A stretch of DNA of 64,000 bases from the IMG/VR virus record IMGVR_UViG_3300042936_000811, positions 19,669-83,668 of that record, one strand, 5' to 3'. Position 1 is the stretch's first letter, and each line of letters begins with the position of its first letter. Positions 3,001 to 64,000 of the stretch are shown piece by piece. The notes below the pieces were generated by a model. The model was not told the origin of the DNA. It ran no database searches and worked only from the letters and a program-made list of their open reading frames with translations. This DNA is from a virus. Both the position numbers and the translations under genes were made by a program.

Positions 3001-3140
3001 TACTACCACTTGAGCCAGACGTACCCGAAGTTCCTGATGAACCACTACTTCCACTTGAACCCGATGTTCCGCTTGTACCTGACGAACCACTTGTTCCCGA
3101 ACTACCTGATGTTCCACTTGTTCCTGATGTTCCGTTAATA
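1..3140 (-). repeat. Degenerate 9-base repeats encoding Gly-(T/S)-(S/D) triplets
   Basis: The minus strand is an almost unbroken series of GGN-(ACN/TCN/AGT)-(AGT/TCN/GAT) codons, read as GSS, GTS, GTD and GTA triplets. Synonymous codons vary from copy to copy, so the protein repeat is conserved while the DNA repeat is scrambled. Long antisense frames rich in Pro-Glu/Asp-Val/Leu are by-products of this pattern. Confidence 0.9.
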
Positions 3141-3460
3141 CCAATAATTAACCATCCAGTACCATTACTCTGTACATAAAGAGAATTATCTGTGGTTAAT
3201 GTTTTAGTAGTACTACCATCAATTGTTTGGCTTGACGTTGTATTTACCGTTATGGTCGCTGACCCTGTATTTTTAACAACGTATATTTTACCCGAAATAC
3301 CAACTGAGGTGGGTAATGTTACTGAAAATGGGGCATTCGAAGACCCCTCGATAAGATAATCATCAGTTGACACGCTATAAGCACTTGACACTGATTTATA
3401 AGGTACTGTTACGCCACCTAAAGATTTGACCCCATTGCGGGCTATGAATTCATTTGCCAT
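1..3460 (-). CDS. Giant Gly-X-Y (collagen-like) fibre protein, C-terminus beyond window
   Basis: The frame is open from an ATG at 3458-3460 to the left edge without a stop, so at least 1153 residues are encoded and the C-terminus is missing. Residues 1 to about 108 form a non-repetitive head starting MANEFIARNGVKSLGG, probably an attachment or trimerisation domain. From about residue 109 every third residue is Gly, with Thr/Ser/Asp/Asn in the other positions and no proline seen. This is the same repeat as the neighbouring 2553-residue protein, so the two are paralogous in architecture. A TATTTATA late-promoter motif lies about 54 bases upstream and the terminator of the neighbouring gene separates the two units. 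Family knowledge: Gly-X-Y or polyglycine-II segments occur in phage tail fibres. The role as a virion fibre is inferred. Confidence 0.8.
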   Translation of the reverse strand, partial: MANEFIARNGVKSLGGVTVPYKSVSSAYSVSTDDYLIEGSSNAPFSVTLPTSVGISGKIYVVKNTGSATITVNTTSSQTIDGSTTKTLTTDNSLYVQSNGTGWLIIGINGTSGTSGTSGSSGTSGSSGTSGTSGSSGSSGSSGTSGTSGSSGSSGSSGSSGSSGSSGTSGTSGSSGSSGSSGTAGTSGSSGSSGSSGLSGTSGTSGSSGSSGSSGTAGTSGSSGSSGSSGTSGSSGSSGTAGTSGSSGSSGSSGSSGTSGSSGSSGTSGTSGSSGTAGTSGSSGVSGTSGTSGSSGSSGSSGTSGTGGTSGSSGTSGSSGSSGSSGSSGTAGTSGSSGSSGTSGSSGTSGSSGTSGTSGSSGTSGTSGSSGTSGTSGSSGSSGSSGSSGSSGTAGTSGSAGTSGTSGSSGSSGSSGTSGSSGTSGSAGTSGTSGTSGSSGTSGTSGSSGSSGSSGSSGSSGSSGTAGTSGSSGTSGTSGSSGSSGSSGVSGTSGTSGSSGSSGSSGSSGSAGTSGTSGSSGSSGSSGTSGTSGSSGTAGTSGSSGSSGSSGTSGSSGSSGSSGSSGTSGTSGSSGSSGSSGTSGTSGTSGSSGTSGTSGSSGTAGTSGSSGSSGSSGSSGSSGSSGTSGTSGSSGTSGTSGSSGSSGSSGSSGTSGSSGTSGTSGSSGTSGSSGTSGSSGSSGSSGSSGSSGTSGSTGTSGTSGTSGSSGTAGTSGSSGSSGSSGSSGTSGTSGSSGTSGSSGSSGTSGTRGTSGSSGTSGTSGTSGSSGSSGSSGTAGTSGSSGTAGTSGSSGSSGSSGSSGSSGSSGTSGTRGTSGSSGTSGTSGSSGTSGTSGSSGISGVNGTNGTSGSSGSSGSSGTSGSSGTSGSSGSSGSSGSSGSSGTSGSSGTSGTRGTSGSSGTSGTSGTSGTSGSSGSSGSSGSSGTAGTSGSSGSSGSSGTSGSSGSSGSSGSSGSSGTSGTAGTSGSSGSSGTSGSSGSSGSSGSSGSSGTSGSSGTSGSSGSSGTAGSSGTSGTSGSSGTSGTSGSSGSSGTSGTSGTSGSSGSSGTSGISGTSGTSGTSGSSGSSGSSGSSGSSGTAGTSGSAGTSGTSGSSGSSGSSGSSGTAGTSGSSGSSGSSGSSGTSGTSGSSGSSGSSGTSGTSGTSGSSGSS

Positions 3461-3610: not shown

Positions 3611-6600
3611 TTAGAAGACAATCCTTGTTCCTACACTTATATCCCAAGTTCCGCCTCCAATTGCTGCGTACAACTCAAGATTTGAACCTATAATTACTGT
3701 GTAGAATTTAACCGCCACCGTTGAAGCGTTTAAATCAGGTGTTGAACTATCAGTAAATGCCGTATTAGTTCCGTCCCACACTGTCATAATAATACCACTT
3801 CTCATCGCGTTTGTTCCAGAATCGTATACGTAATAATCAAATGTTGCACTTGAACCTGATGCGAATGGAAAACGACAAATTAATGTTGTTGTTGTAACAC
3901 CTGTTTCTCTACATGATTGTAATGACTGATTACCTTGTTCAATAGTGTCACCTGTTATTCCTAAAGTAGTACCATCAAAGGTTAAATTAGGTTCTGATGT
4001 TATACCACCCGCACCATCTGAAGTTAATACTTCATTATCATTACCTGATACGACAGGAGATAAACCACTTGTACCTGAAGAACCTGATGTCCCACTTGTC
4101 CCTGATGTCCCACTAGTTCCTTGCAAACCACTTGTTCCGCTCGTACCCGTAGTTCCCGAAGAACCACTTGTACCCGATGTTCCTGAAGAACCGCTTGTTC
4201 CTGATGAACCAGAACTACCTGATGTTCCGCTTGAGCCCGAACTACCCGATGTTCCTGATGAGCCACTCGTACCTGAAGTTCCGCTCGTACCCGATGTTCC
4301 TGAACTACCTGACGTACCCGATGTTCCTGAACTACCTGACGTACCCGATGTTCCTGAAGAACCACTTGTTCCTGATGTTCCACTACTTCCTGATGTACCT
4401 GCAGTTCCACTTGAACCCGATGTTCCTGAAGAACCTGAAGACCCGCTTGTTCCTGAAGAACCTGACGTTCCACTTGTACCACTAGACCCTGAACTACCTG
4501 AGGAACCACTTGAACCTGATGTTCCACTTGTACCCGCAGTTCCTGAAGAACCCGAACTACCACTAGAACCTGATGTTCCCGATGTTCCACTACTTCCGCT
4601 TGTACCCGCGGTTCCTGATGAACCCGATGTTCCACTACTCCCTGAAGTTCCTGATGAACCTGAACTACCTGATGTTCCGCTTGTACCCGCAGTTCCTGAT
4701 GAACCACTTGTTCCTGAACTACCCGAAGAACCCGAAGTTCCACTACTTCCACTAGAACCTGATGAACCCGAAGAACCGCTTGACCCCGATGTTCCACTAC
4801 TTCCACTTGTACCCGCAGTTCCTGAAGAACCGCTACTTCCTGAAGAACCACTTGACCCCGATGAACCGCTTGTTCCTGAACTACCCGATGTTCCACTACT
4901 TCCGCTTGTGCCTGATGTACCTGCAGTTCCTGAAGAACCGCTTGTTCCTGATGTTCCTGAAGACCCCGAACTACCACTAGAACCTGAAGACCCCGAACTA
5001 CCACTTGAACCTGAAGTTCCGCTAGTTCCTGAAGAACCACTTGACCCCGACGAACCTGAACTTCCTGACGTTCCACTAGTACCCGCAGTTCCTGAAGAGC
5101 CGCTACTACCGCTTGAACCTGAACTACCTGAAGTTCCTGATGAACCACTTGAACCTGATGAACCGCTACTACCACTTGAGCCAGACGTACCTGAAGTTCC
5201 TGATGAACCTGATGTACCTGCAGTTCCTGAAGAACCACTTGTCCCACTAGACCCTGATGAACCTGATGAGCCACTTGAACCTGAACTACCGCTAGTGCCT
5301 GATGTACCCGAGCTACCACTTGTTCCTGACGAACCACTTGTTCCACTTGAGCCCGAACTACCTGATGAACCTGATGTTCCTGATGAGCCACTCGTACCTG
5401 AAGTTCCGCTAGTTCCTGAAGAACCTGATGAGCCACTCGTACCTGAAGAACCGCTAGTTCCTGAAGAACCTGAAGTTCCACTAGTTCCTGAAGAACCACT
5501 TGTCCCCGACGTTCCTGAACTACCCGATGTACCACTTGAACCTGAACTACCTGACGTTCCCGATGTTCCACTACTTCCACTAGAACCTGAACTACCACTA
5601 GAACCTGATGTTCCACTTGTACCTGAAGAACCGCTTGACCCTGATGTTCCACTACTTCCACTTGTACCTGCAGTACCTGAAGAACCGCTTGACCCCGATG
5701 AACCGCTTGTCCCACTAGACCCTGATGAACCTGAACTACCACTAGAACCTGAACTTCCTGATGTACCTGAACTTCCGCTAGTACCTGATGTTCCGCTAGT
5801 CCCACTTGTACCCGCAGAACCTGAAGTTCCTGATGACCCGTTAGTTCCTGATGAACCACTTGAACCTGAAGTTCCGCTAGTTCCTGAAGAACCACTTGTC
5901 CCTGACGTACCTGAACTTCCGCTAGTTCCTGATGAACCACTTGTACCTGATGTTCCGCTAGTACCTGATGTTCCTGAAGAACCACTTGTCCCTGACGTAC
6001 CTGAACTTCCGCTAGTTCCTGAAGAACCACTTGAACCTGATGACCCTGAACTTCCACTAGTTCCTGAAGTACCACTTGAACCTGAAGTTCCGCTAGTTCC
6101 TGAACTTCCGTTAGTTCCTGATGAACCACTTGTTCCTGATGAACCACTTGTTCCTGATGAACCACTTGTTCCTGATGAACCGCTTGTTCCTGAAGTACCC
6201 GAAGAACCTGACGTTCCACTTGTTCCCGATGAACCACTTGAACCCGATGTTCCTGATGAACCATTAGTTCCTGAAGTACCCGAAGAACCTGACGTTCCAC
6301 TTGTTCCCGATGAACCACTTGTACCTGAACTACCGCTAGTTCCTGATGAACCTGAACTTCCTGACGTTCCGCTTGTACCCGCAGTACCTGACGAACCACT
6401 AGACCCTGAACTTCCTGATGAACCTGAACTTCCTGATGTTCCACTTGTTCCGCTAGACCCTGAAGAACCGCTTGACCCCGATGTTCCGCTAGTTCCTGAT
6501 GAACCACTAGTTCCTGACGAACCTGAAGTACCACTTGAACCTGATGTTCCTGAAGAACCCGATGTTCCTGAAGAACCATCTGTTCCGCTAGTTCCTGACG

Positions 6601-9600
6601 AACCACTTGAACCTGATGTCCCCGATGAACCTGAACTACCGCTAGTGCCTGATGTACCCGAGCTACCACTTGTTCCTGACGAACCACTTGAACCTGATGA
6701 CCCGCTTGTACCTGAAGACCCACTTGTTCCACTAGAACCTGATGTCCCACTTGACCCTGAAGTTCCTGATGAGCCACTTGTTCCGCTTGAACCAGATGTA
6801 CCACTTGTTCCTGATGAACCATTTACACCACTAATACCACTTGAGCCTGAAGTTCCGCTACTACCATCCGTTCCTGATGAACCATCTGTTCCACTTGTAC
6901 CTGAACTACCGTCAGTTCCGCTTGTTCCTGAAGTTCCACTTGACCCATCTGTTCCTGATGAACCATCTGTTCCACTAGTACCTGATGTTCCTGATGAACC
7001 ATCTGTTCCACTAGTACCTGATGTTCCTGATGAGCCATCCGTACCTGAAGTACCACTAGTTCCTGAAGAACCATCTGTACCACTTGTTCCGCTAGTTCCT
7101 GAAGAACCATCAGTTCCGCTAGTTCCTGAAGAACCATCAGTTCCACTTGTACCTGAACTACCATCAACACCACTTAATCCACTTGAACCTGATGTTCCTG
7201 AAGTACCTGAACTACCGCTAGTTCCTGATGAACCTGAACTTCCACTTGTTCCCGATGAACCATCAGTACCTGAAGTACCACTAGTTCCCGAAGAACCATC
7301 TATTCCTGAAGTTCCTGAAGAACCATCAACACCACTTAATCCGCTTGAACCCGATGTTCCTGAAGAACCATCAGTTCCGCTTGTTCCTGATGAACCATCG
7401 GTTCCACTAGTACCTGATGTTCCTGAAGAGCCGTCTGTACCTGAAGTTCCTGAAGAACCGTCTGTTCCTGATGTTCCTGAAGAACCGTCTGTTCCTGAAG
7501 TTCCACTTGTTCCTGAAGAACCATCGGTTCCACTTGTTCCTGAAGAACCATCGGTTCCACTAGTACCTGATGTTCCTGAAGAGCCGTCTGTACCTGAAGT
7601 ACCACTACTTCCTGAAGAACCATCAGTTCCCGAACTTCCGCTAGTTCCTGAAGAGCCGTCTGTACCTGATGTACCGCTAGTTCCTGAAGAGCCGTCTGTA
7701 CCTGATGTACCACTAGTTCCTGAAGAACCATCAGTTCCTGAACTCCCACTAGTCCCTGAAGAACCATCTGTTCCGCTTGTTCCTGAAGAACCATCTGTTC
7801 CTGAAGTACCTGAACTTCCACTTGTTCCTGAAGAACCATCTGTTCCGCTTGTTCCTGAAGAACCGTCAACACCACTTAATCCACTTGAACCTGATGTTCC
7901 ACTACTCCCATTAGTTCCACTTGTTCCTGAACTACCATCTGTTCCTGAAGTTCCACTAGTACCTGAAGAGCCATCTGTTCCCGAAGTTCCTGAAGAACCA
8001 TCTGTTCCTGATGAACCATCTGTTCCGCTAGTTCCTGATGAACCATCTGTTCCACTAGTACCTGAAGTACCTGATGAACCATCTGTTCCGCTAGTGCCTG
8101 AAGAACCGTCAGTTCCGCTTGTTCCTGAACTACCATCCGTACCGCTTGTTCCTGAACTACCATCAGTCCCACTTGTTCCTGACGAACCACTTGTTCCTGA
8201 TGAACCATCTGTTCCTGAAGAACCACTGGTCCCCGATGAACCGTTAGTACCGCTTGTTCCTGATGAACCATTCACACCACTAATACCACTTGAACCTGAC
8301 GAACCTGACGAGCCATCTGTCCCGCTAGTTCCTGAAGAACCGTCAGTACCACTTGTTCCTGAACTTCCTGAAGAACCGCTAGTCCCTGAAGAACCATCCG
8401 TTCCACTTGTTCCTGAAGAACCATCTGTACCTGAACTTCCACTAGTTCCTGAACTTCCACTAGTTCCTGAAGAACCATCTGTTCCTGAACTACCGTCAGT
8501 TCCGCTAGTTCCTGAAGAACCATCAACACCACTTAATCCACTTGAACCCGAGGTTCCTGAACTACCATCTGTCCCACTTGTACCTGATGTACCGCTAGTT
8601 CCTGAAGAGCCGTCTGTACCTGATGTACCACTAGTTCCTGAAGAACCATCAGTTCCTGAACTCCCACTAGTCCCTGAAGAACCGTCAGTTCCGCTTGTAC
8701 CTGAAGAACCATCAACACCGCTTAATCCGCTTGACCCCGATGTTCCTGAAGAACCATCAGTTCCGCTAGTTCCTGAACTACCGTCAGTACCCGAACTTCC
8801 ACTTGTTCCCGATGACCCATCTGTTCCTGAAGTACCTGATGAACCATCTGTCCCTGAAGTACCTGAAGAACCATCTGTTCCACTAGTACCTGAACTACCA
8901 TCTGTTCCACTTGTTCCTGAGGAACCGCCTGAACCTGAAGAACCGCTTGTACCAGAACTTCCACTTGTACCTGAAGAACCATCAGTACCCGAACTTCCAC
9001 TTGTACCTGAAGAACCATCAGTTCCGCTTGTTCCTGAAGAACCATCAGTACCGCTAGTTCCTGAAGAACCACTTGACCCCGATGTTCCTGAAGTACCTGA
9101 ACTACCGTCAGTACCGCTAGTTCCTGATGAACCATCTGTTCCTGAAGTACCTGAACTTCCACTTGTTCCTGAAGAACCATCTGTTCCTGAAGTACCTGAA
9201 GAACCATCAACACCACTTAATCCACTTGAACCTGATGTTCCACTTGTTCCTGAAGAACCATCTGTTCCGCTTGTTCCACTAGTACCTGAAGAACCATCAG
9301 TTCCGCTTGTTCCTGAAGAACCATCAGTACCGCTAGTTCCTGAAGAACCGTCTGTTCCGCTTGTTCCTGAAGAACCGTCAACACCACTTAATCCACTTGA
9401 ACCTGATGTTCCACTTGTTCCCGATGACCCATCTGTTCCGCTAGTTCCACTTGTTCCTGATGAACCATCTGTTCCGCTAGTTCCTGAAGAACCGTTAGTA
9501 CCACTAGTTCCTGATGAACCATCTGTTCCTGAACTACCGCTTGTCCCTGATGAACCATCTGTTCCGCTTGTTCCTGAAGAACCTGACGTACCATTAGTTC

Positions 9601-11272
9601 CGTTAACACCACTAATTCCACTTGAACCCGAGGTACCACTTGAACCATCGGTACCACTTGTTCCTGAACTACCGTCAGTTCCACTTGTTCCTGAAGAACC
9701 ATCAGTTCCTGAAGTACCTGAACTCCCACTTGTTCCTGAAGAACCGCTAGTCCCTGAAGAACCATCCGTTCCACTTGTTCCTGAAGAACCATCTGTTCCT
9801 GAACTTCCGCTTGTTCCTGAACTACCGTCAGTTCCGCTAGTTCCTGATGAACCATCTGTTCCTGAACTACCGTCAGTTCCACTTGTTCCTGAAGAACCAT
9901 CAACACCACTTAATCCGCTTGAACCCGAAGTGCCTGAACTTCCGTCAGTTCCACTTGTTCCTGATGAACCATCTGTTCCTGAACTTCCGCTAGTTCCTGA
10001 TGAACCATCTGTTCCTGAAGTTCCTGAACTACCGTCAGTTCCGCTTGTACCTGAACTACCATCTGTACCACTTGAGCCCGATGTTCCTGAAGAACCATCT
10101 GTTCCACTAGTTCCTGATGAACCATCTGTTCCTGAACTACCGTCAGTACCGCTTGTTCCTGAAGAACCGTCAATACCACTAGTTCCTGAACTACCGTCAG
10201 TTCCACTTGTACCTGAACTACCGTCAGTTCCACTTGTACCTGAACTACCATTGGTACCACTTGTTCCGCTTGAGCCCGATGTTCCTGAAGAACCATCTGT
10301 TCCTGATGTTCCTGAAGACCCACTATTTCCTGACGTACCTGAACTACCATCGGTCCCACTAATACCTGAAGTCCCTGAAGAACCATTAACACCACTTATA
10401 CCACTAGACCCTGAAGTTCCCGAAGAACCATCAGCACCTGAAGTTCCCGAACTACCGTCAGTTCCTGAAGTTCCTGAAGAACCGTCAATCCCACTTGTTC
10501 CTGAAGAACCTGACGTTCCTGAAGAACCGTCAGTCCCACTTGTTCCTGAACTACCATCAGTACCTGAAGTACCTGATGAACCATCAGTACCCGAACTTCC
10601 ACTAGTCCCTGAAGAGCCGTTAGTCCCTGAAGAGCCGTTAGTCCCTGAAGAGCCGTTAGTTCCTGAAGAACCACTACTACCAGAAGAACCACTACTACCT
10701 GACGTACCCGATGTTCCTGATGAACCACTTTCACCCGAAGAACCCGATGAACCCGATGAACCGTTAGTTCCTGAAGAACCGTTAGTTCCTGAAGAACCGT
10801 TAGTTCCTGAAGAACCACTACTACCAGAAGAACCACTTGAACCTGAACTTCCTGATGAACCACTTGAACCTGAACTTCCTGATGAACCACTTGTTCCACT
10901 AGAACCTGATATTCCTGAAGTACCACTTGAACCTGATGTTCCTTTAGTTCCTGAACTACCCGAAGAACCGCTACTTCCTGATGTTCCACTACTTCCTGAA
11001 GAACCACTTAAACCTGAAGTACCATTTTGACCACTTGAACCTGACGAACCATTAACACCACTTGTTCCTGATGAACCATTAACACCACTTGTTCCTGCAG
11101 TACCTGAAGTACCAGCAAGGGATAGAGCATCCGCAATTTGTTGGATACTTGCTTTATATGATGAACCTGCGGGGTTTTGTGATGTATCACCCGTAATGAC
11201 AATGTGTACAATGTCATCTGGAGATACTATCGGAGCTTGGGTTCTGTCGGTCAGTCTTTGATAATTCGGCAT
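3611..11272 (-). CDS. Giant proline-free Gly-X-Y fibre protein (2553 aa)
   Basis: Residues 1-53 form a small N-terminal head. Residues 54 to about 2400 are roughly 780 consecutive Gly-X-Y triplets built from GTS, GSS, GTD, GTN and rare GLS, GVD, GIS, GVN; no proline is visible in this stretch. The section encoded at about 6850-10700 is rich in GTD and carries longer-range units with GLSGVDG or GISGVNG, whereas the section at about 4060-6850 is almost only GTS/GSS. The last 150 residues (from SPVVSGNDNEVL) form a globular tip. Family knowledge: regular Gly-X-Y gives collagen triple helices and Gly-rich segments can also form polyglycine-II bundles. A repeat without proline or charge pairs is unusual. 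Role as a tail or head fibre is inferred from the tail-fibre neighbourhood and the late-type promoter. If fully extended as a collagen helix it would be among the longest phage fibres. Confidence 0.85.
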   Translation of the reverse strand: MPNYQRLTDRTQAPIVSPDDIVHIVITGDTSQNPAGSSYKASIQQIADALSLAGTSGTAGTSGVNGSSGTSGVNGSSGSSGQNGTSGLSGSSGSSGTSGSSGSSGSSGTKGTSGSSGTSGISGSSGTSGSSGSSGSSGSSGSSGSSGSSGSSGSSGTNGSSGTNGSSGTNGSSGSSGSSGESGSSGTSGTSGSSGSSGSSGSSGTNGSSGTNGSSGTNGSSGTSGSSGTDGSSGTSGTDGSSGTSGTDGSSGTSGSSGTSGIDGSSGTSGTDGSSGTSGADGSSGTSGSSGISGVNGSSGTSGISGTDGSSGTSGNSGSSGTSGTDGSSGTSGSSGTSGTNGSSGTSGTDGSSGTSGTDGSSGTSGIDGSSGTSGTDGSSGTDGSSGTSGTDGSSGTSGSSGTDGSSGTSGTDGSSGTSGTDGSSGTSGSSGTDGSSGTSGTDGSSGTSGSSGLSGVDGSSGTSGTDGSSGTDGSSGTSGTDGSSGTSGSSGTDGSSGTSGTDGSSGTSGSSGTSGSSGTSGTDGSSGTSGTDGSSGTSGTDGSSGTSGSSGISGVNGTNGTSGSSGTSGTDGSSGTSGSSGTDGSSGTSGTNGSSGTSGTDGSSGTSGTSGTDGSSGTSGTSGSSGLSGVDGSSGTSGTDGSSGTSGTDGSSGTSGTDGSSGTSGTSGTDGSSGTSGTSGSSGLSGVDGSSGTSGTDGSSGTSGSSGTSGTDGSSGTSGTDGSSGTSGTSGSSGSSGTSGTDGSSGTSGTDGSSGTSGSSGTDGSSGTSGSSGTSGSSGSGGSSGTSGTDGSSGTSGTDGSSGTSGTDGSSGTSGTDGSSGTSGSSGTDGSSGTSGTDGSSGTSGSSGLSGVDGSSGTSGTDGSSGTSGSSGTDGSSGTSGTSGTDGSSGTSGTSGTSGTDGSSGTSGSSGLSGVDGSSGTSGTDGSSGTDGSSGTSGSSGTSGSSGTDGSSGTSGTDGSSGTSGSSGSSGTSGTDGSSGTSGTDGSSGSSGSSGISGVNGSSGTSGTNGSSGTSGSSGTDGSSGTSGSSGTSGTDGSSGTSGTDGSSGTSGTDGSSGTSGTDGSSGTSGTSGTDGSSGTSGTDGSSGTDGSSGTSGTDGSSGTSGTSGTDGSSGTSGTNGSSGTSGSSGLSGVDGSSGTSGTDGSSGTSGSSGTSGTDGSSGTSGTDGSSGTSGSSGTDGSSGTSGTSGTDGSSGTSGTSGTDGSSGTSGSSGTDGSSGSSGTSGTDGSSGTSGTSGTDGSSGTSGTDGSSGTSGTSGTDGSSGTSGTDGSSGTSGTDGSSGTSGTSGTDGSSGTSGTDGSSGTSGSSGLSGVDGSSGTSGIDGSSGTSGTSGTDGSSGTSGSSGSSGTSGSSGTSGTSGSSGLSGVDGSSGTSGTDGSSGTSGTDGSSGTSGTSGTDGSSGTSGTSGTDGSSGTSGTSGTDGSSGTSGTSGTDGSSGTDGSSGTSGTSGTDGSSGTSGTDGSSGTDGSSGTSGSSGISGVNGSSGTSGTSGSSGTSGSSGTSGSSGTSGSSGTSGSSGTSGSSGSSGSSGTSGSSGTSGTSGSSGSSGTSGSSGSSGTSGTDGSSGTSGSSGTSGSSGTSGSSGTSGSSGTSGTSGSSGSSGSSGTSGTSGSSGSSGSSGSSGSSGTAGTSGTSGSSGSSGTSGSSGTSGSSGTSGTSGSSGTSGTNGSSGTSGSSGSSGTSGTSGSSGTSGTSGSSGTSGSSGTSGSSGTSGSSGTNGSSGTSGTSGSSGTSGTSGSSGSSGSSGSSGTSGSSGTSGTSGSSGTSGTSGTSGTSGSSGTSGSSGTSGTSGSSGTSGTSGSSGSSGTNGSSGTSGSAGTSGTSGTSGTSGSSGTSGSSGSSGSSGSSGSSGTSGSSGSSGSSGTAGTSGSSGTSGSSGSSGTSGTSGSSGSSGSSGSSGTSGTSGSSGSSGTSGSSGTSGTSGSSGTSGTSGSSGTSGSSGTSGSSGSSGTSGTSGTSGSSGTSGSSGSSGSSGTSGSSGTSGSSGTSGTSGSSGSSGSSGSSGSSGTSGSSGTAGTSGSSGTSGTSGSSGSSGSSGSSGSSGTSGSSGSSGSSGSSGTAGTSGTSGSSGSSGSSGSSGTSGTSGSSGSSGSSGSSGSSGSSGTSGTSGSSGTAGTSGTSGSSGTSGSSGTSGSSGSSGSSGSSGSSGTAGTSGSSGTSGSSGSSGSSGSSGSSGTSGSSGSSGTSGSSGTAGTSGTSGSSGSSGTSGSSGTSGSSGTAGTSGSSGTSGTSGSSGSSGSSGTAGTSGTSGSSGSSGSSGSSGTSGTSGSSGTSGSSGSSGTSGSSGTAGTSGSSGTSGTSGSSGTSGTSGSSGTSGTSGSSGTSGTSGTSGTSGSSGTSGSSGSSGTSGSSGSSGTSGSSGTSGTSGSSGTTGTSGTSGLQGTSGTSGTSGTSGSSGTSGLSPVVSGNDNEVLTSDGAGGITSEPNLTFDGTTLGITGDTIEQGNQSLQSCRETGVTTTTLICRFPFASGSSATFDYYVYDSGTNAMRSGIIMTVWDGTNTAFTDSSTPDLNASTVAVKFYTVIIGSNLELYAAIGGGTWDISVGTRIVF
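4060..11110 (-). repeat. About 7 kb of Gly-X-Y coding repeats
   Basis: The minus strand consists of about 780 Gly-led triplet codon groups. Two zones differ: Asp-containing GTD triplets dominate roughly 6850-10700, while Thr/Ser-only triplets dominate roughly 4060-6850. The rare GLSGVDG and GISGVNG units recur at irregular intervals within the first zone, suggesting block duplication. Confidence 0.9.
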
Positions 11273-56296: not shown

Positions 56297-57592
56297 TTAT
56301 TTAAATCCTAATGTCGATAATAATGGTTCTAACCAATTACTAACTTCTTTATTACTTCCTTCGATACCTTTGGTGATAACAGTCTCGTCGTAATCAGTTT
56401 CGTCATTATTACTATCATCTTTATAATCAGTACCCAATTTATTAGTGAAAATTTTTCCAGAATTTTTTAACAATTCTCTAATATGTTCCCCATAAGGTAA
56501 TCCTATGTGCACATGAGTCATTGTGTCATGTCCAACCCATTCAGAAACAACTCCAATGTAATCACCAACTTTAATTGTATCTCCGTTCTTTAATTTTACA
56601 TTTTTAACGTGAGTGTAAAAAATATCAGGAAATCCGTCAGACCCTTTAATCGATACTTGTGTTCCATAAATTTTTCCAGAATTTTTACCAGTATCTCTTA
56701 TTTTAGTTACAGTACCGTTAGTATATGAATTAACAACTGTATTCGGAGGGGCAAAAATATCCCAAGCATTATCTGATTGCCAATTACCTAATTTTCTACT
56801 ACCATGATTTTTTGGACCGTTCTCTAAATCAGTTTTAAAATTACCACCAATAGTTGTTGTAGATTCTTTCAAGGATAATTCTTTATCAATACGATTATCT
56901 TGATATTGATATAATTTTTCAATATATCCATTTCTTCTCAATACTTTAAATACTAAGTTTTCATCAGAATATTCTCCACCTTCTTCTAATCCGCAAGTTC
57001 TATATTTTTTAAGTTTTTTCTTATACTTGTCGATAATTTTTTTAGTGTCATCAATAGATTCATCCTTAACACTTTCAATAACACCGTCAATAATGTCCAT
57101 CCATTGTTTTGATTTGTTTTTAATCAGTTCAAGGTCAATTTTAACATTTTCTTTTTTAGGTTCATTTTCCCATGTATCAAATAAAACAGAATACACTCCA
57201 CTACTAAAGTGAGACTCAATTTCATTTTGAACATATAACTCAACTTCATATCCGTAGATGGTGATATCGTGTTTGTCGTTATATATGGTTTTTTTTAATT
57301 GGAATAATTCTTCGTATAAAGGTAATTCAGTTTTTGAGAATTGATTAAAGTCAACTAAGATGTGTAAATCAATGTCTGAAAATTTTGACCAGTTATAATT
57401 GGCTAATGAACCTGTCATTATAACGTCTGACACAAAAATATCAACGTTTAAAAATTCTATAAACTCATAAGCAATCTCAAGTAGACGTGACCTAACTTTA
57501 GGTGACATCTTTTCCATTGACCCATCCCAAATCTTAGGATTTAATTCGTCTTGTACGTGAAAACTAGTTAATATACTTTTTAAATCACTCAT
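56297..57592 (-). CDS. Nucleotidyltransferase fused to degenerate M23-like peptidase domain (431 aa)
   Basis: Residues about 50-105 form a minimal nucleotidyltransferase: MTGSLANYNWSKFSDIDLHILV shows the GS(x9)SDxD motif, and VELYV may supply the third acidic position. Residues about 280-400 resemble M23/LytM metallopeptidase: DNAWDIFAPPNTVV, IFYTHVKNV and MTHVHIGL, the last carrying the HxH zinc motif. The first His of the family is replaced by Asn (NAWD). M23 domains cut peptidoglycan cross-links; nucleotidyltransferases of this type modify nucleotides or RNA. The fusion is unusual. Late promoter motif 4 bases upstream. Confidence 0.7.
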   Translation of the reverse strand: MSDLKSILTSFHVQDELNPKIWDGSMEKMSPKVRSRLLEIAYEFIEFLNVDIFVSDVIMTGSLANYNWSKFSDIDLHILVDFNQFSKTELPLYEELFQLKKTIYNDKHDITIYGYEVELYVQNEIESHFSSGVYSVLFDTWENEPKKENVKIDLELIKNKSKQWMDIIDGVIESVKDESIDDTKKIIDKYKKKLKKYRTCGLEEGGEYSDENLVFKVLRRNGYIEKLYQYQDNRIDKELSLKESTTTIGGNFKTDLENGPKNHGSRKLGNWQSDNAWDIFAPPNTVVNSYTNGTVTKIRDTGKNSGKIYGTQVSIKGSDGFPDIFYTHVKNVKLKNGDTIKVGDYIGVVSEWVGHDTMTHVHIGLPYGEHIRELLKNSGKIFTNKLGTDYKDDSNNDETDYDETVITKGIEGSNKEVSNWLEPLLSTLGFK

Positions 57593-58206: not shown

Positions 58207-58214
58207 TACCTTTG
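58207..58214 (+). promoter_or_regulatory. Bacteroidota-type -7 box TACCTTTG
   Basis: Matches TAnnTTTG, 54 bases upstream of the ClpC-like ATG at 58269. The -33 element is not clear. Confidence 0.5.
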
Positions 58215-58268: not shown

Positions 58269-60311
58269 ATGATAGAATCCATGGATAATGGGGGAAAGAA
58301 TAACCCACCTAAATCAACATCTGACTCATCAACACCTGTGTTGGATAACTTCAGCCGAGATTTAATCAAATTGGCCGAACAAGGTAAATTAGACCCTGTT
58401 GTTGGTAGAGAAAGAGAAATTACAAGGATTGCTCAAATCCTTTCTCGTAGAAAGAAAAATAACCCTATTATTATTGGTGAACCTGGTTGTGGTAAAACCG
58501 CAATCGTAGAAGGATTAGCAATTAAAATTTTTAACGGTGAATGTCCAAGAAATTTAATGGATAAAAGAATTGTTTCGTTAGACATGACATCGATTGTTGC
58601 GGGTACAAAATACCGTGGTCAGTTTGAGGAACGTATGAAAGTAATTATCGAGGAGTTACAAAACGCACCAAATATCATTGTCTTTATTGACGAAATTCAC
58701 ACAATAGTTGGTGCAGGTAATTCATCAGGTTCGTTAGACGCATCAAACATCTTCAAACCAGCACTTGCCCGTGGAGAAATTCAATGTGTTGGTGCAACAA
58801 CTCTTGATGAGTATCGTAAGAACTTTGAGAAAGACGGAGCATTAGAAAGACGTTTTCAAAAGGTAATTGTTGACGCGGCGACTAAAGAAGAGACTTTGGA
58901 GATTCTTAAGAATGTTAAAGATAAATACGAATCATTCCACAAGGTATCTTATACTGATGAAATACTTTCAGTATGTGTTGATTTGGCGGCAAGATATATC
59001 ACCGACAGAGAGTTTCCTGATAAGGCATTCGACATTATTGATGAGGTAGGTGCGAGATGTCAAGTTGAGATTAAAATGCCTGACATTATTGAAAAATTAA
59101 AACAAGAAGCTGCCGACGTTAAAATTGAAAAACTTGAGGTTGTTAAAAAACAAAATTACGAAGAGGCGGCAAATCTACGTGACAAGGAAAAACGTATTCT
59201 CAATAAATTAGATATTGAGAAGAAAAAATTTGAGGAGGAACTTCAGATTAAGAAAAAAGAAGTTTCTATCGAATTGGTTTATGAGGTCGTTTCAAACATG
59301 ACTAAAATTCCTATTAGTAAATTGAATGCTAATGAGACGATGTTACTATCTCAATTAGAGGGTAGTTTATCTGACAAAGTAATTGGCCAATCTGAAGCGG
59401 TTATGAAAATTGCTAAGTCAATCAGACGAAACAGATTAGGTATTAAAGACCCTAATAAACCAATTGGTTCATTTATTTTCCTTGGTTCAACAGGTGTAGG
59501 TAAAACTTACTTAGCAAAACAATTGGCAAAACAAATGTTTGGTAGTGAGGAGAATATGATTCGTGTGGACATGTCTGAATACCAAGAAAAACATAGTATC
59601 TCAAGATTAATTGGAGCCCCTCCAGGATATGTAGGTTATGACGAAGGTGGTCAATTAACTGAACAAGTTAAAAACAAACCTTACTCAGTAATTTTATTTG
59701 ATGAGATTGAAAAGGCAAACAAAGACATATTTTCAACATTATTACAAGTGTTGGATGACGGTCACCTTACAGATGGTATGGGAAGAAAAATTAACTTCAA
59801 AAACTGTGTCATTATCATGACATCAAACGTTGGAGTTAAAAAACTACAGGAGTTTGGTGCGGGTGTAGGATTTAAAACTAACTCGAGTTCTTACGTTGAA
59901 GAAGAACAAAAAAGAGAAGTTTTGAAGAAGGAACTTAAGAAGTTTTTCGCCCCTGAATTTTTAAACCGTATTGATGAGGTTATTATTTTTAATTCACTAG
60001 TGAAAGAAGATGTTAAAAAAATTGTTAAGCTTGAGTTGAGTATTTTATCTGAAAGATTGACAGGTCTTAAATATAATATTAAATTTGACGATTCTATTTT
60101 AGATATGATTTCTGAGGTTGGGTTTGATGAAATGTATGGTGCTCGTCCATTGAAAAGAGCTATTCAGGATAAAGTTGAAGATTTTATATCTGAAGAGGTT
60201 CTTAAGAGTAACATTCAAGAGAATACTGAGTACACGTTAATAAGTGAAAATGGTGATGTTAAGTTTAAAGAGGAAAAGAAAGTCACAAGAAAAAGAAAAG
60301 GGGTTGAATAA
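58269..60311 (+). CDS. clpC-like: ClpC-like AAA+ unfoldase without N-domain
   Basis: 680 residues, two AAA+ modules. D1 Walker A is GEPGCGKT (residues about 70-77), Walker B VFIDEIHTI. A short middle part contains a UVR-type helix (NYEEAANLRDKEKR) as in ClpC and unlike the long coiled coil of ClpB. D2 Walker A is GSTGVGKT, Walker B ILFDEIEKA. After the D2 sensor region lies GAGVGFKT, at the position of the ClpP-docking (V/I)GF loop. The usual N-terminal Clp-N domain is absent. Host ClpP could therefore be the partner. Preceded by a host-type -7 box and followed by terminators. Confidence 0.9.
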   Translation: MIESMDNGGKNNPPKSTSDSSTPVLDNFSRDLIKLAEQGKLDPVVGREREITRIAQILSRRKKNNPIIIGEPGCGKTAIVEGLAIKIFNGECPRNLMDKRIVSLDMTSIVAGTKYRGQFEERMKVIIEELQNAPNIIVFIDEIHTIVGAGNSSGSLDASNIFKPALARGEIQCVGATTLDEYRKNFEKDGALERRFQKVIVDAATKEETLEILKNVKDKYESFHKVSYTDEILSVCVDLAARYITDREFPDKAFDIIDEVGARCQVEIKMPDIIEKLKQEAADVKIEKLEVVKKQNYEEAANLRDKEKRILNKLDIEKKKFEEELQIKKKEVSIELVYEVVSNMTKIPISKLNANETMLLSQLEGSLSDKVIGQSEAVMKIAKSIRRNRLGIKDPNKPIGSFIFLGSTGVGKTYLAKQLAKQMFGSEENMIRVDMSEYQEKHSISRLIGAPPGYVGYDEGGQLTEQVKNKPYSVILFDEIEKANKDIFSTLLQVLDDGHLTDGMGRKINFKNCVIIMTSNVGVKKLQEFGAGVGFKTNSSSYVEEEQKREVLKKELKKFFAPEFLNRIDEVIIFNSLVKEDVKKIVKLELSILSERLTGLKYNIKFDDSILDMISEVGFDEMYGARPLKRAIQDKVEDFISEEVLKSNIQENTEYTLISENGDVKFKEEKKVTRKRKGVE

Positions 60312-60323
60312 CCCCCTTTTTTT
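60296..60323 (+). terminator. Terminator overlapping the end of clpC-like gene
   Basis: GGGGTT-gaat-AACCCC stem including the stop codon, then a C and a T run. Confidence 0.8.
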
Positions 60324-60342
60324 ATGTTCATTAATAAGCAAA

Positions 60343-60374
60343 AAATAACCCCACCTTACGGAGGGGTTTTTTAT
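60343..60374. terminator. Bidirectional terminator
   Basis: AACCCC-A-CC-ttac-GG-A-GGGGTT stem flanked by A and T tracts, between the convergent clpC-like and peptidase genes. Confidence 0.85.
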
Positions 60375-61204
60375 TAGTCAAATAAATAACTGTATCGTGG
60401 TTTCGATTTGAATGGGTATTTCACATTACCCAATTTCTCAATTAATTCTTTACCCGTTTTGATTCCATTATAAACATCTTCGATTACAACGTATTCTTCT
60501 CTAGTGTGGTAGTCGTAGTACCCAATCGAGAAGTTAATACATGAGAAGTCAAATGTGTTCTTCAAAGCGTACACGTCTGTGTATGGGTGAGATTGATATT
60601 TTCTATCAGGATTGAATGTTTCTGTTAAAACCTCATCACATGATTTAAAGAACTCGGTTTCTCTACCAAATAATTGAACTCCCATACAGAACTCACTAAC
60701 CATCCAGTTTTCAGGAGCATCAAATTGAATTCCGTATCCAACATTCTCGAAGAAATTTTTATCCGCTTGTTTTGAACCGTGGCAACCTGTTTCTTCTGAA
60801 ACAAAGAATGCGGCTTTAAGATTTGGTAATTCTTTTAATAATTCTAAACATGCGTAAACACCGCATTTATCATCACCACCAATTCCTGTTGGTTCACCAA
60901 AATCGTTGAATGCTTTTAATGATGGTTTAATTACTCCCTGAGCGTTAGGTAATTCCATTTCTCTAACGTTAATTACGTCTAATTGATGTACGGTATCAGT
61001 ATGAGCAATAACACACGGGAAATAGAAATCTTCAGTAATATCCTGAGATGTCTTAGTAGCATAAATGTTTCGATGTTCGTCTACCTGAAATGGTATTTGG
61101 TTTTCGGTTAACCAATTAACTAAAAACTCAATCATTCGGTCTTCCTTATATGTCTTTGTTGGGACCGACAAAACGTCCTTTAGTAATTGATAGTTTCTTT
61201 CCAT
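60374..61204 (-). CDS. M20-family metallopeptidase
   Basis: 276 residues with the two-zinc M20 arrangement: CVIAHTDTVH (first His/Asp), TGIGGDDKCGVYACL (bridging Asp), FFVSEETGCHGS (catalytic Glu), QFDAP and a C-terminal YYDYHTREEYV His. M20 enzymes cut short peptides. Since it accompanies a tmRNA and an unfoldase, it may complete peptide turnover. A perfect TTTG-N20-TATCTTTG promoter lies directly upstream, the -7 box ending only 4 bases before the ATG. Confidence 0.88.
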   Translation of the reverse strand: MERNYQLLKDVLSVPTKTYKEDRMIEFLVNWLTENQIPFQVDEHRNIYATKTSQDITEDFYFPCVIAHTDTVHQLDVINVREMELPNAQGVIKPSLKAFNDFGEPTGIGGDDKCGVYACLELLKELPNLKAAFFVSEETGCHGSKQADKNFFENVGYGIQFDAPENWMVSEFCMGVQLFGRETEFFKSCDEVLTETFNPDRKYQSHPYTDVYALKNTFDFSCINFSIGYYDYHTREEYVVIEDVYNGIKTGKELIEKLGNVKYPFKSKPRYSYLFD

Positions 61205-61208
61205 AGGC

Positions 61209-61240
61209 CAAAGATAAGTAAATTACTTTACTTTGACAAA
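61209..61240 (-). promoter_or_regulatory. Bacteroidota promoter TTTG-N20-TATCTTTG, leaderless-type
   Basis: Minus strand: TTTG (61237-61240), 20-base spacer, TATCTTTG (61209-61216). Four bases separate the -7 box from the ATG at 61204, so the message would start at or very near the start codon. Confidence 0.85.
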
Positions 61241-62587
61241 TCTATTTTCAAATAATTCGGGATGATGTAAAAATTGGTCAAAATCTTCAAAATCATAACT
61301 TCTTTGTTCGCCTTGATATGAATTCTTAACTGAAACAACAACATGGACTTTATTAGTTTTTGGGTCCATTTTAATTATACTAAATGTTTTTGTTTCGTCT
61401 TTGGGTAATTTGTAATTAGTTTCCATGTCGTACTTACTTAAAATTTTCGAAGCATTATCTGAGAATTTTTTAATATCCTCAAATTCGTCAGAATCCTCAA
61501 GTTTAGTAAACATCTTATCTAATTGCCAACCACAACTACGATTGAACGATTCATCATCAAAATCAATACAATCCTGTTCATAAGAATATTCTTCCCATCC
61601 ACCAAGATTTCCTGATTTATGACCAATATCACTTAAAACCTCACTAACCGTGAAATGTCTTTCATCAACCATTTTATATAAAGATAATAATACCGACACT
61701 GTTGTCACATAACTATAAAAACAATTACCCATATTGAATATTCCATAATTTTGGAAGAAATTACAACAGTCGTCTTCAATCATCTTACGGGCACCTCGTT
61801 CTTTACAGTTATTTTTTTCTGACAACCATTCAGATTTAATTCCCTCACATTCACGTTCAAATGTTGATAATAGTAAATTAGACGCTTTTTCCCATTCTTC
61901 ATCATTTCGTAACTGAGATAGTTCTGGCGATAATAATTTTAAAATTTCTTTTAGTTTAATTTGGTTTTCGTCATTTAATTCCCGTAACAAATAACCCTGT
62001 TTCCAATCCTCATCAGCGAAATCTTCACTTTCAAATTGGTAGGAATCATAATTAGAATATACGTAATTTCCAAACCAAATATCTCCTTCAGTTAACTCAA
62101 ATAATTTCCAATAATCCTCATAATCATCAAACTTTAATTTAACTCTACTTTTACCAGGTGTTTGTTCATTAAACTTAATATCATATACAATTGGGTCAAA
62201 TCTATTAGCATCCCAGTTATTAACCTTTTGACCGTTTTTAATTTTTAATAATAAATCGTATATCTCACTATTCCCCATAATATCTTGGACGTAGGGTTTT
62301 AGGTACGGATACTTAAATGTGATGTTGTCGTAACTTTCAAGTTTTAATTCGATACCTGAATAATATTCAAGCTCACCATCGGTAGGTTTGTATAGTGTGT
62401 ATATATACTCAGGGCCAGGATTGTATTTACTCACGGCAAAATATAAATCACCATGACTAAAATCTCGGTCATACAATTCAGTAACCTTGGGGGGTCCGTA
62501 ATAGGTCGCTGCGTTCTTATTGAACACCTGTACCAATACGACATACTCGTTCTCAAATATTATCTTAGCGTTTTTTGATTCCTCCAC
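61223..62587 (-). CDS. Hypothetical protein (454 aa), GTG start
   Basis: Not recognised. A GTG at 62585-62587 is the start: an in-frame TAA lies 9 bases upstream and no in-frame ATG follows for about 100 residues. The N-terminal half is acidic beta-type; the central part has Cys clusters (NNCKER, EDDCCNFF). Overlaps the M20 promoter at its 3' end. A late motif lies 15 bases upstream. Function unknown. Confidence 0.6.
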   Translation of the reverse strand: MEESKNAKIIFENEYVVLVQVFNKNAATYYGPPKVTELYDRDFSHGDLYFAVSKYNPGPEYIYTLYKPTDGELEYYSGIELKLESYDNITFKYPYLKPYVQDIMGNSEIYDLLLKIKNGQKVNNWDANRFDPIVYDIKFNEQTPGKSRVKLKFDDYEDYWKLFELTEGDIWFGNYVYSNYDSYQFESEDFADEDWKQGYLLRELNDENQIKLKEILKLLSPELSQLRNDEEWEKASNLLLSTFERECEGIKSEWLSEKNNCKERGARKMIEDDCCNFFQNYGIFNMGNCFYSYVTTVSVLLSLYKMVDERHFTVSEVLSDIGHKSGNLGGWEEYSYEQDCIDFDDESFNRSCGWQLDKMFTKLEDSDEFEDIKKFSDNASKILSKYDMETNYKLPKDETKTFSIIKMDPKTNKVHVVVSVKNSYQGEQRSYDFEDFDQFLHHPELFENRFVKVK

Positions 62588-62602
62588 AAATATTTATTTA
62601 CA

Positions 62603-62610
62603 TATAAATA
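62603..62610 (-). promoter_or_regulatory. Putative late promoter motif TATTTATA
   Basis: Exact coding-strand motif 15 bases before the GTG at 62587. It faces away from the tmRNA promoter, giving a divergent arrangement. Confidence 0.6.
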
Positions 62611-62618
62611 TAAAATAG

Positions 62619-62649
62619 TTTGGTAATTGGTAAAACTTTACTATCTTTG
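62619..62649 (+). promoter_or_regulatory. Bacteroidota promoter of the tmRNA
   Basis: TTTG at 62619-62622, 19-base spacer, TATCTTTG at 62642-62649; the tmRNA 5' end is 26 bases downstream of the -7 box, leaving a short leader. Confidence 0.88.
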
Positions 62650-62675
62650 TAAAAGAAATAAGTTCTTTAACATAT

Positions 62676-63061
62676 GGGGGTAACTTGGAATTGACTGGCA
62701 TTGTTAGTTATTCGGGGCACGCAGTGAGATGTATCCTATCACTTAAATCTACGGATGTAAACTGTAAACGGAAACGTTTTAGACAAAATGGCGACCATCG
62801 GATTAATCCGTGAAGAAGCTGCGGTTGTTGCCTAACATATAGGAAACACCATACGGGTCGGTGGACATACAACCTAGGAACAGAAGTCTATACAAAGGTG
62901 GAAAAATGACTGAACCCAAAATCGAGTCATCCATTGGTTGTTAGTTTACGATGGTGAAGAACGAACTAACTATTTTTGGAACATTAGAAAATGTTATCCT
63001 AAGCGTGTAGTCCTTAATAGGTAAGGTGTACAACACGAGGGTTCGAACCCCTCTACCTCCA
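62676..63061 (+). tRNA. ssrA: tmRNA (ssrA), 386 nt
   Basis: The 5' end GGGGGTA pairs with TACCTCC near the 3' end (7 bp with one G-U), giving the tRNA-like acceptor. The conserved 5' block (TAACTTGGAATTGAC with GGGCACGCAG downstream) and 3' block (CTAAGCGTGTAGT and the T-arm GAGGGTTCGAACCCCTC) match tmRNA. The discriminator A is followed by CTC, so CCA is not encoded. The tag reading frame ends at TAA 62833-62835 with ...REEAAVVA; its start is uncertain (GGA at 62770 would give 21 residues). Hydrophobic small-residue ending suits a Clp-type degron. The gene rescues stalled ribosomes and tags nascent peptides; a complete phage-encoded copy implies autonomous rescue during infection. Followed by its own terminator. 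Confidence 0.92.
62770..62835 (+). other. tmRNA tag reading frame (start uncertain)
   Basis: The frame ending with codons for REEAAVVA and TAA is open upstream of GGA 62770; alternatives for the resume codon lie between 62770 and 62803. Only the C-terminal end and the stop are certain. Confidence 0.6.
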
Positions 63062-63067
63062 CTCATT

Positions 63068-63095
63068 AAACCTCATCTTCGGATGGGGTTTTTTT
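63068..63095 (+). terminator. tmRNA terminator
   Basis: Ten-base-pair stem with a UUCG tetraloop (AAACCTCATC-TTCG-GATGGGGTTT, one T-G pair) and a T run. Confidence 0.95.
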
Positions 63096-63146: not shown

Positions 63147-63179
63147 AAAAAAAGGGAATAACATCGTCATGTTATTCCC
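63147..63179 (-). terminator. Strong terminator of a minus-strand transcript
   Basis: Perfect 10-base-pair stem GGGAATAACA-TGACGA-TGTTATTCCC followed by seven T on the minus strand. Confidence 0.92.
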
Positions 63180-64000
63180 GTTGGGCTTTTTACTCAGTGG
63201 TACAACCTTAACCACTCCATCAGTTTGTGACACCGAATGGGACCTTCTATCGTGAGGTGAATATCCGCGACCTAAACGTCTATGTTTTTTGGTTTTTTAC
63301 TTATTTAGACACCTATAAAAAACCTGTGGTTATCACAAAAATCCACAACCTAAGAATATCGGTGTTGACGTTTTTTATCTTTTAGCGAAGATGTCTTGTC
63401 TTGACACAAACACACTAGTTTTTTGTATTTATCAATCAGAGCAGATAAAGGTTGTAACATAGTATAAAACCAAAAACACACACTCTATGGGACTTTTTTA
63501 AGGGAAAGTTTAAACTCATTACCTTGAGGAATATACCGTAATTACCTCTTTTCTCTGTATTGGAGTCACTGTTTTCATAGTTTTGGTTGGCTAAAGGCTG
63601 AGAATACACCGTTTTGTGAGAATCTTTAGAAGGATTATTTGGTTCCCTTCATTTCCACCATCTTTTGAATGGTAACTCTCATCGCCGATTGGTTAGACCA
63701 ATCACTCCTTAAGGTTTTAACTACTCTATTACTACTCTACTCTCTTCAATCTTGCGAACTGACTCAGGATTCGACTCCTTGGAGGTTTTTGGTAACAATA
63801 TACATCGACTTGCGGTCTCAGTATGCCATGAACAACTCATGACTATGTAGGCGACTTTCATCAAAACCTGACGAACACTTTTGCTTATATGTCTTTTAGT
63901 TTTACTTAAATTTAGTATAAGTTTTGTGTTGTGGATGATTCCAAGTAGAGGTCCGTCTTAAGCCTCGTTATCTTTTGAACAACAAGATACTTGTCTACTC
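63147..64000 (-). ncRNA. Candidate large structured non-coding RNA, 5' end beyond the window
   Basis: No ORF of meaningful length exists in any frame over 850 bases, in a genome that is otherwise almost fully coding, and the minus strand ends in a strong terminator (63147-63179). Many local stems occur on the minus strand: 7 bp with a 3-base loop at 63687-63703, 5 bp at 63657-63673, AGTGGT/ACCACT at 63196-63216, TGTGG/CCACA at 63325-63347 and TTTATC/GATAAA at 63428-63449. Size, richness in stems and position beside a tmRNA recall the giant ornate RNAs of phages such as GOLLD and ROOL, but I cannot match a conserved motif, so identity is open. See finding. Confidence 0.55.

Follow-up and report, generated by a model that had tools for sequence, protein, structure and literature searches.

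The window analysed here, a stretch of 64,000 nucleotides that forms the last 64 kb of a virus record of 83,668 bases (IMG/VR record IMGVR_UViG_3300042936_000811), carries close to its end a transfer-messenger RNA (tmRNA, ssrA) gene together with genes for a ClpC-like unfoldase and an M20-like peptidase, which an initial annotation made from the sequence alone had described as a coordinated system of tagging and degradation. The observation behind that annotation holds, and we add to it a resume codon at 62770 that opens a tag of 21 residues, a GOLLD RNA, a conserved protein of 454 amino acids (orf454), and genes for SmpB and ClpP in relatives; of these additions the tag carries the most weight. 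The core of the locus reads as follows.

58269..60311, plus strand: ClpC-type double-AAA+ unfoldase without N-domain, 680 amino acids, with a GVGF ClpP-docking loop (Pfam, PHROG, alignments)
60374..61204, minus strand: M20-like (peptidase T-like) metallopeptidase, 276 amino acids (PHROG, Pfam, alignment)
62676..63061, plus strand: tmRNA (ssrA), acceptor stem 62676-62682 / 63054-63060 with a G3-U pair, CCA not encoded
62770..62835, plus strand: tag reading frame, GNVLDKMATIGLIREEAAVVA and stop

The tmRNA is present and complete, as had been claimed: the Rfam model RF00023 matches 62676-63064 with 65.9 bits, where its gathering score is 47 (E 1.9e-23), the acceptor stem GGGGGTA/TACCTCC forms seven of seven pairs, G3-U included, and the T arm is intact, with a 5-bp stem GAGGG/CCCTC around the 7-nucleotide loop TTCGAAC. 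The G3-U pair is the identity element for alanine. ARAGORN called neither a tRNA nor a tmRNA in the window, for which the atypical GGAAUUGAC of the D arm may be the reason, and it was also blind to six of the seven phage tmRNA loci tried from the searched records. Among 77 distinct tmRNAs of relatives, 538 of 539 acceptor-stem cells pair and G3-U is kept in 76; partners shuffled between sequences gave a mean of 476 and a maximum of 491, in a control where the 5' offset of 0-2 bases fitted to each sequence was not refitted. RNAalifold predicted 36 pairs from 30 sequences, with compensatory change in 25. On this comparative evidence the gene is a structurally constrained tmRNA under selection with a likely tmRNA function, and it looks like a gene of its own, with a promoter-like box upstream and a hairpin downstream.

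Relatives were gathered as 180 loci found by ClpC, M20 or orf454 (the best 80 of 218 ClpC stretches, the best 80 of 288 M20 stretches and 20 loci of 22 orf454 stretches), which form 61 clusters at 97% nucleotide identity, all of one clade. The resume codon of the window is GGA at 62770, a frame we set because the context TAAAC-GG (the hyphen marking the resume site) is shared with host tmRNAs, being found in three of the eight compared while the other five have a similar A-rich context, and because it agrees with the tag GNVINKLSAVGLIRAEEAVVA that ARAGORN reads in the relative L200. The C terminus REEAAVVA was thus correctly proposed at the outset, and the full tag is 21 residues long. Across the 54 clusters with a full tmRNA, the tag has either 21 residues (27 clusters) or 22 (27 clusters) and ends in VA in 50, in AA in two and in TA in two, LAA occurring in none. 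The motif [VIL]GL[IVLT]R is present in all 54 and the longer K[ML]..[VIL]GL[IVLT]R in 53, over 27 distinct tags, of which those of two clusters begin with D instead of G; the frame search had demanded G or D at position 1 and G[LIV] at positions 11-12, and R14, which it did not demand, is invariant. Distant loci carry GDVLSKMETLGLLRESEVTVA or a tag near it. Heterozygosity at the three codon positions is 0.30, 0.05 and 0.41 (site permutation 0.0005), measured over the first 14 codons of 31 distinct versions from 62 of 64 distinct tmRNAs, the two starting with GAC being omitted. Synonymous change dominates at the tag codons, and we therefore conclude from the codon pattern that the tag is selected as a protein. 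The 26 Bacteroidota genomes used for comparison, which were hand-picked from the 80 loci of bacterial ClpC relatives and may not include the true host, all have tags of 9-10 residues, ending in ALAA in 19, AMAA in six and NLAA in one; the commonest tag length in the tmRNA database is given as 10 (PMC11915505). A reading of the phage tag as an amphipathic helix was rejected, its hydrophobic moment being no higher than that of shuffles, and a six-frame search of the window and of locus L002 for the tag core returned only the tag itself.

The presumed downstream machinery is intact in its hallmarks. The ClpC-like open reading frame matches PHROG 4871 (E 1.6e-237) and, above cut-offs, the Pfam families AAA, AAA_lid_9, AAA_2 and ClpB_D2-small, with UVR just below (20.7 against 21.5); in NCBIfam it falls under every cut-off shown. 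Residues 150-803 of S. aureus ClpC (6em8) align with the phage protein through both AAA modules, the middle region and the loop, and GVGF falls on the loop region, so that its proposed place at the ClpP-docking position is borne out. GxGF, the pore-loop tyrosines and the P-loop glycines and lysines, motifs whose roles we take to be those usual for ClpC, are invariant in all 25 aligned sequences, the window included (alignments covered 25 of 27 ClpC, 19 of 25 M20 and 34 of 39 orf454 representatives). All 25, at 639-708 amino acids, begin just before D1 and have no N-terminal Clp_N domain; we therefore speak of a ClpC-type, N-domain-less protein and not of a canonical ClpC. The assignment of the second gene to M20 peptidases stands in part: it matches PHROG 4191 'peptidase' (E 3e-36), and H68, D70, D111, E137, E138, D162 and H233, presumably the metal ligands and catalytic glutamate of the family, are invariant in all 19 aligned sequences, the window included, which leaves the presumed active site intact. 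The Pfam family M20 (PF01546) reaches 21.0 bits, under its cut-off of 24.6, and we therefore call the protein M20-like; its nearest NCBIfam and Pfam models are peptidase T-like and far under their cut-offs, and a PDB sequence search found no relative.

Co-conservation of ssrA, clpC and M20 in relatives had been named beforehand as a check whose failure would refute the module, and the check is passed: gene order is kept in all 55 of the 55 clusters that reach the tmRNA. Over the 61 clusters, clpC is found in 61, M20 in 60, orf454 in 59 and the tmRNA in 55, the six without it (L039, L047, L057, L068, L077 and L165) ending before its place; the 179 loci with at least two features all share order and orientation. 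The remaining protein gene of the set lies between the peptidase and the tmRNA.

61223..62587, minus strand: conserved 454-amino-acid protein with a GTG start (orf454), which 59 of 61 cluster representatives carry between M20 and tmRNA (two end earlier)

Its family is fast-evolving, with size classes of about 355 and 455 amino acids and some longer forms. The predicted fold is good (predicted local distance difference test 90.6) but found no confident match, the full-length model giving a best E of 0.17 against the PDB, where a second look gave a best Z of 4.9 over 76 residues. Against BFVD, two matches had E below 0.001 (best 2.8e-4, template modelling score at most 0.20), and rows with probability 0.94-1.00 over some 100-180 columns, to uncharacterised phage and giant-virus proteins with scores of at most 0.30, make a shared domain possible. 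Searches of NCBIfam and of a phage collection gave nothing usable, and in Pfam one family member each matched six families, the window protein lying under all cut-offs.

Beyond the tmRNA, at the end of the record, lies a second structured RNA.

63595..64000, minus strand: GOLLD RNA, conserved 3' region (Rfam RF02032), whose 5' part would fall past the record end

The match scores 321.9 bits against a gathering score of 150 over model positions 1-416, on the opposite strand to the tmRNA and convergent to it; longer near-identical contigs run on past the truncation at the record end. Between GOLLD and the hairpin on its strand, 63180-63594 contains no called gene and may hold another RNA. In 42 of 55 clusters a GOLLD follows the tmRNA at a distance of 142-5,627 bases, on the other strand; the remaining 13 have none, five of them with at least 6.7 kb of sequence beyond the tmRNA; the whole records G009 and G010 also have no GOLLD. 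Sampling by the GOLLD motif only gave 91 stretches with 90 new loci, of which 37 carry this tmRNA; 19 of the 37 are identical in the stretch to tmRNAs already sampled, and the rest include distant loci, whose M20 is as little as 46% identical (L282) and whose ClpC is about 71% identical. Some of the 53 stretches without this tmRNA are short and stop before its place, and Rfam on 15 of the 53 found GOLLD in 14 and a tmRNA in none. GOLLD as a general partner of tmRNA was accordingly rejected, given those 14 and the tmRNA clusters without GOLLD. In work cited by PMC12286853, GOLLD is reported to bind ribosomes in pull-down experiments and to increase at lysis; its position next to a ribosome-rescue RNA is thereby suggestive, but not more than that.

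Candidate signals for transcription surround the genes.

58207..58214, plus strand: TACCTTTG, candidate Bacteroidota-type -7 box of the clpC-like gene, 62 nucleotides before the start; a single match in the window only, weak alone
62619..62622, plus strand: TTTG, candidate -33 element, 19 nucleotides before the tmRNA -7 box
62642..62649, plus strand: TATCTTTG, candidate -7 box of the tmRNA, 34 nucleotides upstream of it
60300..60315, plus strand: terminator-like hairpin at the end of the clpC-like gene (consensus match)
60349..60363, minus strand: terminator-like hairpin after the M20-like gene (consensus match)
63068..63091, plus strand: terminator-like hairpin directly 3' of the tmRNA (consensus match)
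63154..63179, minus strand: terminator-like hairpin on the GOLLD strand, downstream of GOLLD (consensus match)

A -7 box had been claimed for every gene, which holds in part. For the tmRNA, TAnnTTTG occurs within 90 nucleotides upstream in 58 of 63 distinct upstream regions of relatives, at varying distances (commonest 22 and 34 nucleotides), against a mean of 7 and a maximum of 16 in mononucleotide shuffles. For clpC and M20 it comes down to matches in the window, those of the M20-like gene lying 12 and 40 nucleotides before the start codon, the farther one within the orf454 coding sequence, and over the whole window the motif shows no clear enrichment (106 against 91 expected, reached by 8 of 100 shuffles). 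Terminator-like sites number 7 in 6.5 kb, against 3.2 (standard deviation 2.3) in shuffles.

The virus itself probably has its host or donor in Bacteroidota, because the bacterial ClpC relatives examined (the best 80 of at least 592 stretches, 56-60% identical) all belong to Bacteroidota by record annotation. The capsid protein is a Pfam Gp23 match, and the portal and terminase, whose genes lie 6-10 kb from the clpC-like gene, match PHROG families so named, which we take to be a T4-type set; the best relatives of the terminase in the phage collection are those of an uncultured 484-kb phage (28.5%), Microcystis phage Mel-JY01 (28.1%) and Flavobacterium phage immuto (27.1%). Elsewhere in the window, a 2553-codon open reading frame at 3611-11272 (minus strand) faces an open frame of 2361 codons at 3945-11030 (plus strand), and another such pair occupies 2-3460 and 3-3179; frames open on both strands suggest repetitive coding sequence. 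At 56297-57592 (minus strand), one protein joins a nucleotidyltransferase-like domain to an M23 peptidase domain.

Partners for such a pathway occur in many relatives. Sixteen searched records hold ClpP in nine, SmpB in ten and a tmRNA above cut-off in 13, the other three being G004, whose contig ends near the place, LR745206 and LR756502. Eight searched IMG/VR contigs longer than 150 kb (the contig of L036 stands outside this count) include six with ClpP, six with SmpB and four with both; they make up five clusters, for which the counts are four, four and three. Both proteins are found in G002, G003, G006 and G008 and in three phages of 635-642 kb. The smpB gene lies 0.5-0.9 kb beyond the tmRNA in G002, G003, G006, G008 and G011, and beyond or next to it in 17 of 55 clusters; residues 28-221 of the 224 in one relative's ClpP align with solved ClpP structures, presumed triad included. 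LR756504 (636 kb) has clpC, M20, ClpP, SmpB and tmRNA dispersed, with smpB 3.7 kb from clpC, and LR745206 and LR756502 have two and three ClpP matches and ClpC proteins 55-57% identical. The SmpB of these last two phages may serve a diverged tmRNA or that of the host. LR756508 carries, beside a full-length tmRNA at 92434-92880, a short tmRNA-like match of 112 bases (414804-414915, 58 bits), perhaps a tag-less form.

We tentatively favour, at somewhat under an even chance, the reading that the phage runs its own trans-translation and that its tag is most likely handled by phage ClpC with ClpP. The phage tmRNA would be charged with alanine through its G3-U pair and would, together with SmpB, enter ribosomes that have stopped on broken mRNAs, the SmpB being the host's or, in many relatives, encoded by the phage; a phage-specific tag of 21-22 residues would be added in place of the host's short degron ending in LAA, and the ribosome released. 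Tagged fragments would most likely be unfolded by the N-domain-less ClpC, its GVGF loop docking on a ClpP that would be the phage's own in many relatives and otherwise the host's, and the M20-like peptidase may finish the peptides. What the sequences themselves hold is a constrained tmRNA, a protein-selected tag, an unfoldase and a peptidase with their hallmarks intact, and their co-conservation; from these we infer expression, tagging during infection, the reading of the tag by ClpC, and any role that M20 and GOLLD may have in the same path. A coordinated module is plausible on this evidence, and degradation by phage ClpC is unproven.

Several observations weigh against this reading. The clpC gene and the tmRNA lie on one strand and M20 and orf454 on the other, and of nine genes looked at upstream of clpC, seven occur in 36-37 of the 37 clusters (six in 37, the terminase in 36, g57822 in 28 and the portal, partly out of reach, in 27), in a test of presence only over clusters with at least 9.9 kb upstream of clpC. 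The 83.7-kb record, a fragment, contains neither SmpB nor ClpP; ClpP was also not seen in G001 (322 kb) and G007 (166 kb), which form one cluster, nor SmpB in G005 (196 kb), and LR745206 (635 kb) and LR756502 (642 kb) possess SmpB, ClpP, clpC and GOLLD and no tmRNA above cut-off. With the T stem cut at fixed distances, 54 of 77 sequences show it fully paired and 23 less so. In the cultured Cellulophaga phages phi40:1 and Calle_1, the tmRNA and an M20 relative are about 1.3 kb apart, and there is no ClpC. (The M20 of phi40:1 as a scan query returned two loci; in L419, KC821612 26909-27082, the annotated coding sequence gp041 of phi40:1 overlaps the tmRNA and is probably not a gene.) The coordination originally claimed for the module thus goes beyond the evidence, because upstream genes are equally conserved and the genes use both strands, with terminator-like sites after clpC, M20 and tmRNA. 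A single operon was ruled out by the same strands and sites, and conserved order was set aside as proof of function, the upstream genes being present in as many relatives.

A serious if lesser possibility is that the neighbours are unlinked in function: the tmRNA would rescue ribosomes, ClpC would serve virion assembly or host takeover (portal and terminase genes being 6-10 kb away), M20 would supply amino acids, and their order would be ancestral and without functional meaning. The equal presence of the upstream genes, the terminase among them, the use of both strands and the intervening terminator-like sites speak for it. A part for Clp proteins in virion assembly has been proposed in print (PMC6102473, PMC7824862), and the gap between clpC and M20 reaches 2.7-4.9 kb in four loci (L026, L028, L029 and L155). 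M20 relatives also occur in four other phages, Klebsiella VLC1, Vibrio DE10, Brevibacillus Jenst and Bacillus 136, which have no tmRNA above cut-off and no ClpC. However, the tag has departed from the host pattern and is conserved in itself, which suggests a reader, and ClpC retains its ClpP loop. The distant loci found through the GOLLD motif carry the set too, and the tmRNA stands near M20 even in the unrelated Cellulophaga phages, where chance is possible in a 73-kb genome.

The favoured reading, that tagged fragments pass to phage ClpC with ClpP, has a stricter and unlikely form, in which the tag is a private code: the core K[ML]..[VIL]GL[IVL]R would be read only by the phage's own N-domain-less ClpC and phage ClpP, in a line of rescue and degradation orthogonal to host SsrA-ClpXP, with GOLLD perhaps holding ribosomes or tRNAs nearby. 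Less probable still, the tag may have been changed to make it hard for host ClpXP to read, ribosomes being freed while the fragments are spared by the host or sent to another host protease. The absence of LAA from all 54 clusters, set against LAA or MAA in all 26 hosts, would fit such an escape, as would two tmRNAs unrelated to the clade that likewise do not end in LAA, namely that of phi40:1 and Calle_1, where ARAGORN reads 22 residues, AQIEANMEAVNAILNLEVAVGV (ending EVAVGV; 30 residues if read from an upstream TAAAC-GG), and that of Bacillus phage G, AKLNITNNELQVA (ending LQVA). This comparison spans three phage lineages, and two further tags have no reliable reading, LR756508 giving GRRKPLSW by ARAGORN, which we judged untrustworthy, and LR756504 no tag candidate in its tmRNA. 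Engineered ssrA tags ending in LVA are still degraded in E. coli, which counts against escape; drift alone could lose LAA, and the conserved core points to a positive reader. That the phage tmRNA is mainly a decoy, titrating host SmpB or alanyl-tRNA synthetase to weaken host rescue, is very improbable: a molecule similar to the tag-less tmRNA of phage DS6A inhibits tmRNA strongly, perhaps by titrating SmpB (PMC4131195), and no SmpB was seen in the 83.7-kb record, yet a decoy needs no tag, whereas this tag frame is under protein-level selection, and SmpB is encoded by many of the relatives themselves.

Should the phage's own unfoldase read the tag, the virus would have built a degradation signal and its reader independently of the host, which would offer a clean test of tag-protease co-evolution and an orthogonal degron for biotechnology. 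Even otherwise, a tag conserved over 54 clusters and unlike the 26 host tags sampled makes the reason for a phage tmRNA directly testable. A large Bacteroidota phage may run its own protein clean-up during infection, and the unexplained GOLLD nanocage RNA is tied to ribosome rescue through its gene neighbourhood.

Parts of this system have precedents. For huge phages, Al-Shayeb et al. (2020, PMC7162821) proposed that phage-encoded tmRNA and SmpB free ribosomes and set off degradation, and the five genomes above 634 kb described there are predicted in Bacteroidetes; those tmRNAs were called with ARAGORN, which is blind to that of the window, and the main text uses no Clp or GOLLD terms and, as far as its available text goes, presents no tag analysis. 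tmRNA was found in 402 of 18,146 phage genomes (PMC9004378), and it is on record for mycobacteriophages and Bacillus phage G (PMC4131195); one jumbo phage was described with seven putative Clp proteins (PMC6102473). The initial statement that this is not a standard phage feature fits the gene set, although tmRNA with SmpB and Clp proteins were each already in print. Moraphages (PMC12619734), large aquatic phages of 200-307 kb mostly predicted in Bacteroidota, resemble the present clade in their T4-type structural core genes and in a core list where a Clp ATP-binding subunit and a putative peptidase are each entered for 24 genomes; compared by description only, they differ in that the main text does not mention tmRNA. 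Published GOLLD RNAs (PMC12286853) and the one described here are alike in being phage-borne, the former often near tRNA islands, the latter by Rfam match; the present one converges with a tmRNA and has an unfoldase gene close by, and tmRNA goes unmentioned in the available text of that report. The S. aureus ClpC (6em8) has an N-terminal domain that the aligned phage sequences lack, the rest aligning from residue 150. The open-licence literature in PMC, so far as its texts were available, yielded no description of a clade-specific phage tag or of this gene set. The tmRNA of phage Melnitz is two-piece, whereas the one here is one-piece with a clade-specific tag of 21-22 residues. With Bacteroidota host tmRNAs of the GENNYALAA type it shares the one-piece form, a tag beginning at a GGN codon and a similar sequence before it; the host tags have 9-10 residues and end in LAA or MAA, whereas the phage tags have 21-22 and end in VA, TA or AA. 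Phage tmRNA, SmpB, Clp and GOLLD have each been published, and what is new here is the long, clade-specific tag and the gene set in which it stands.

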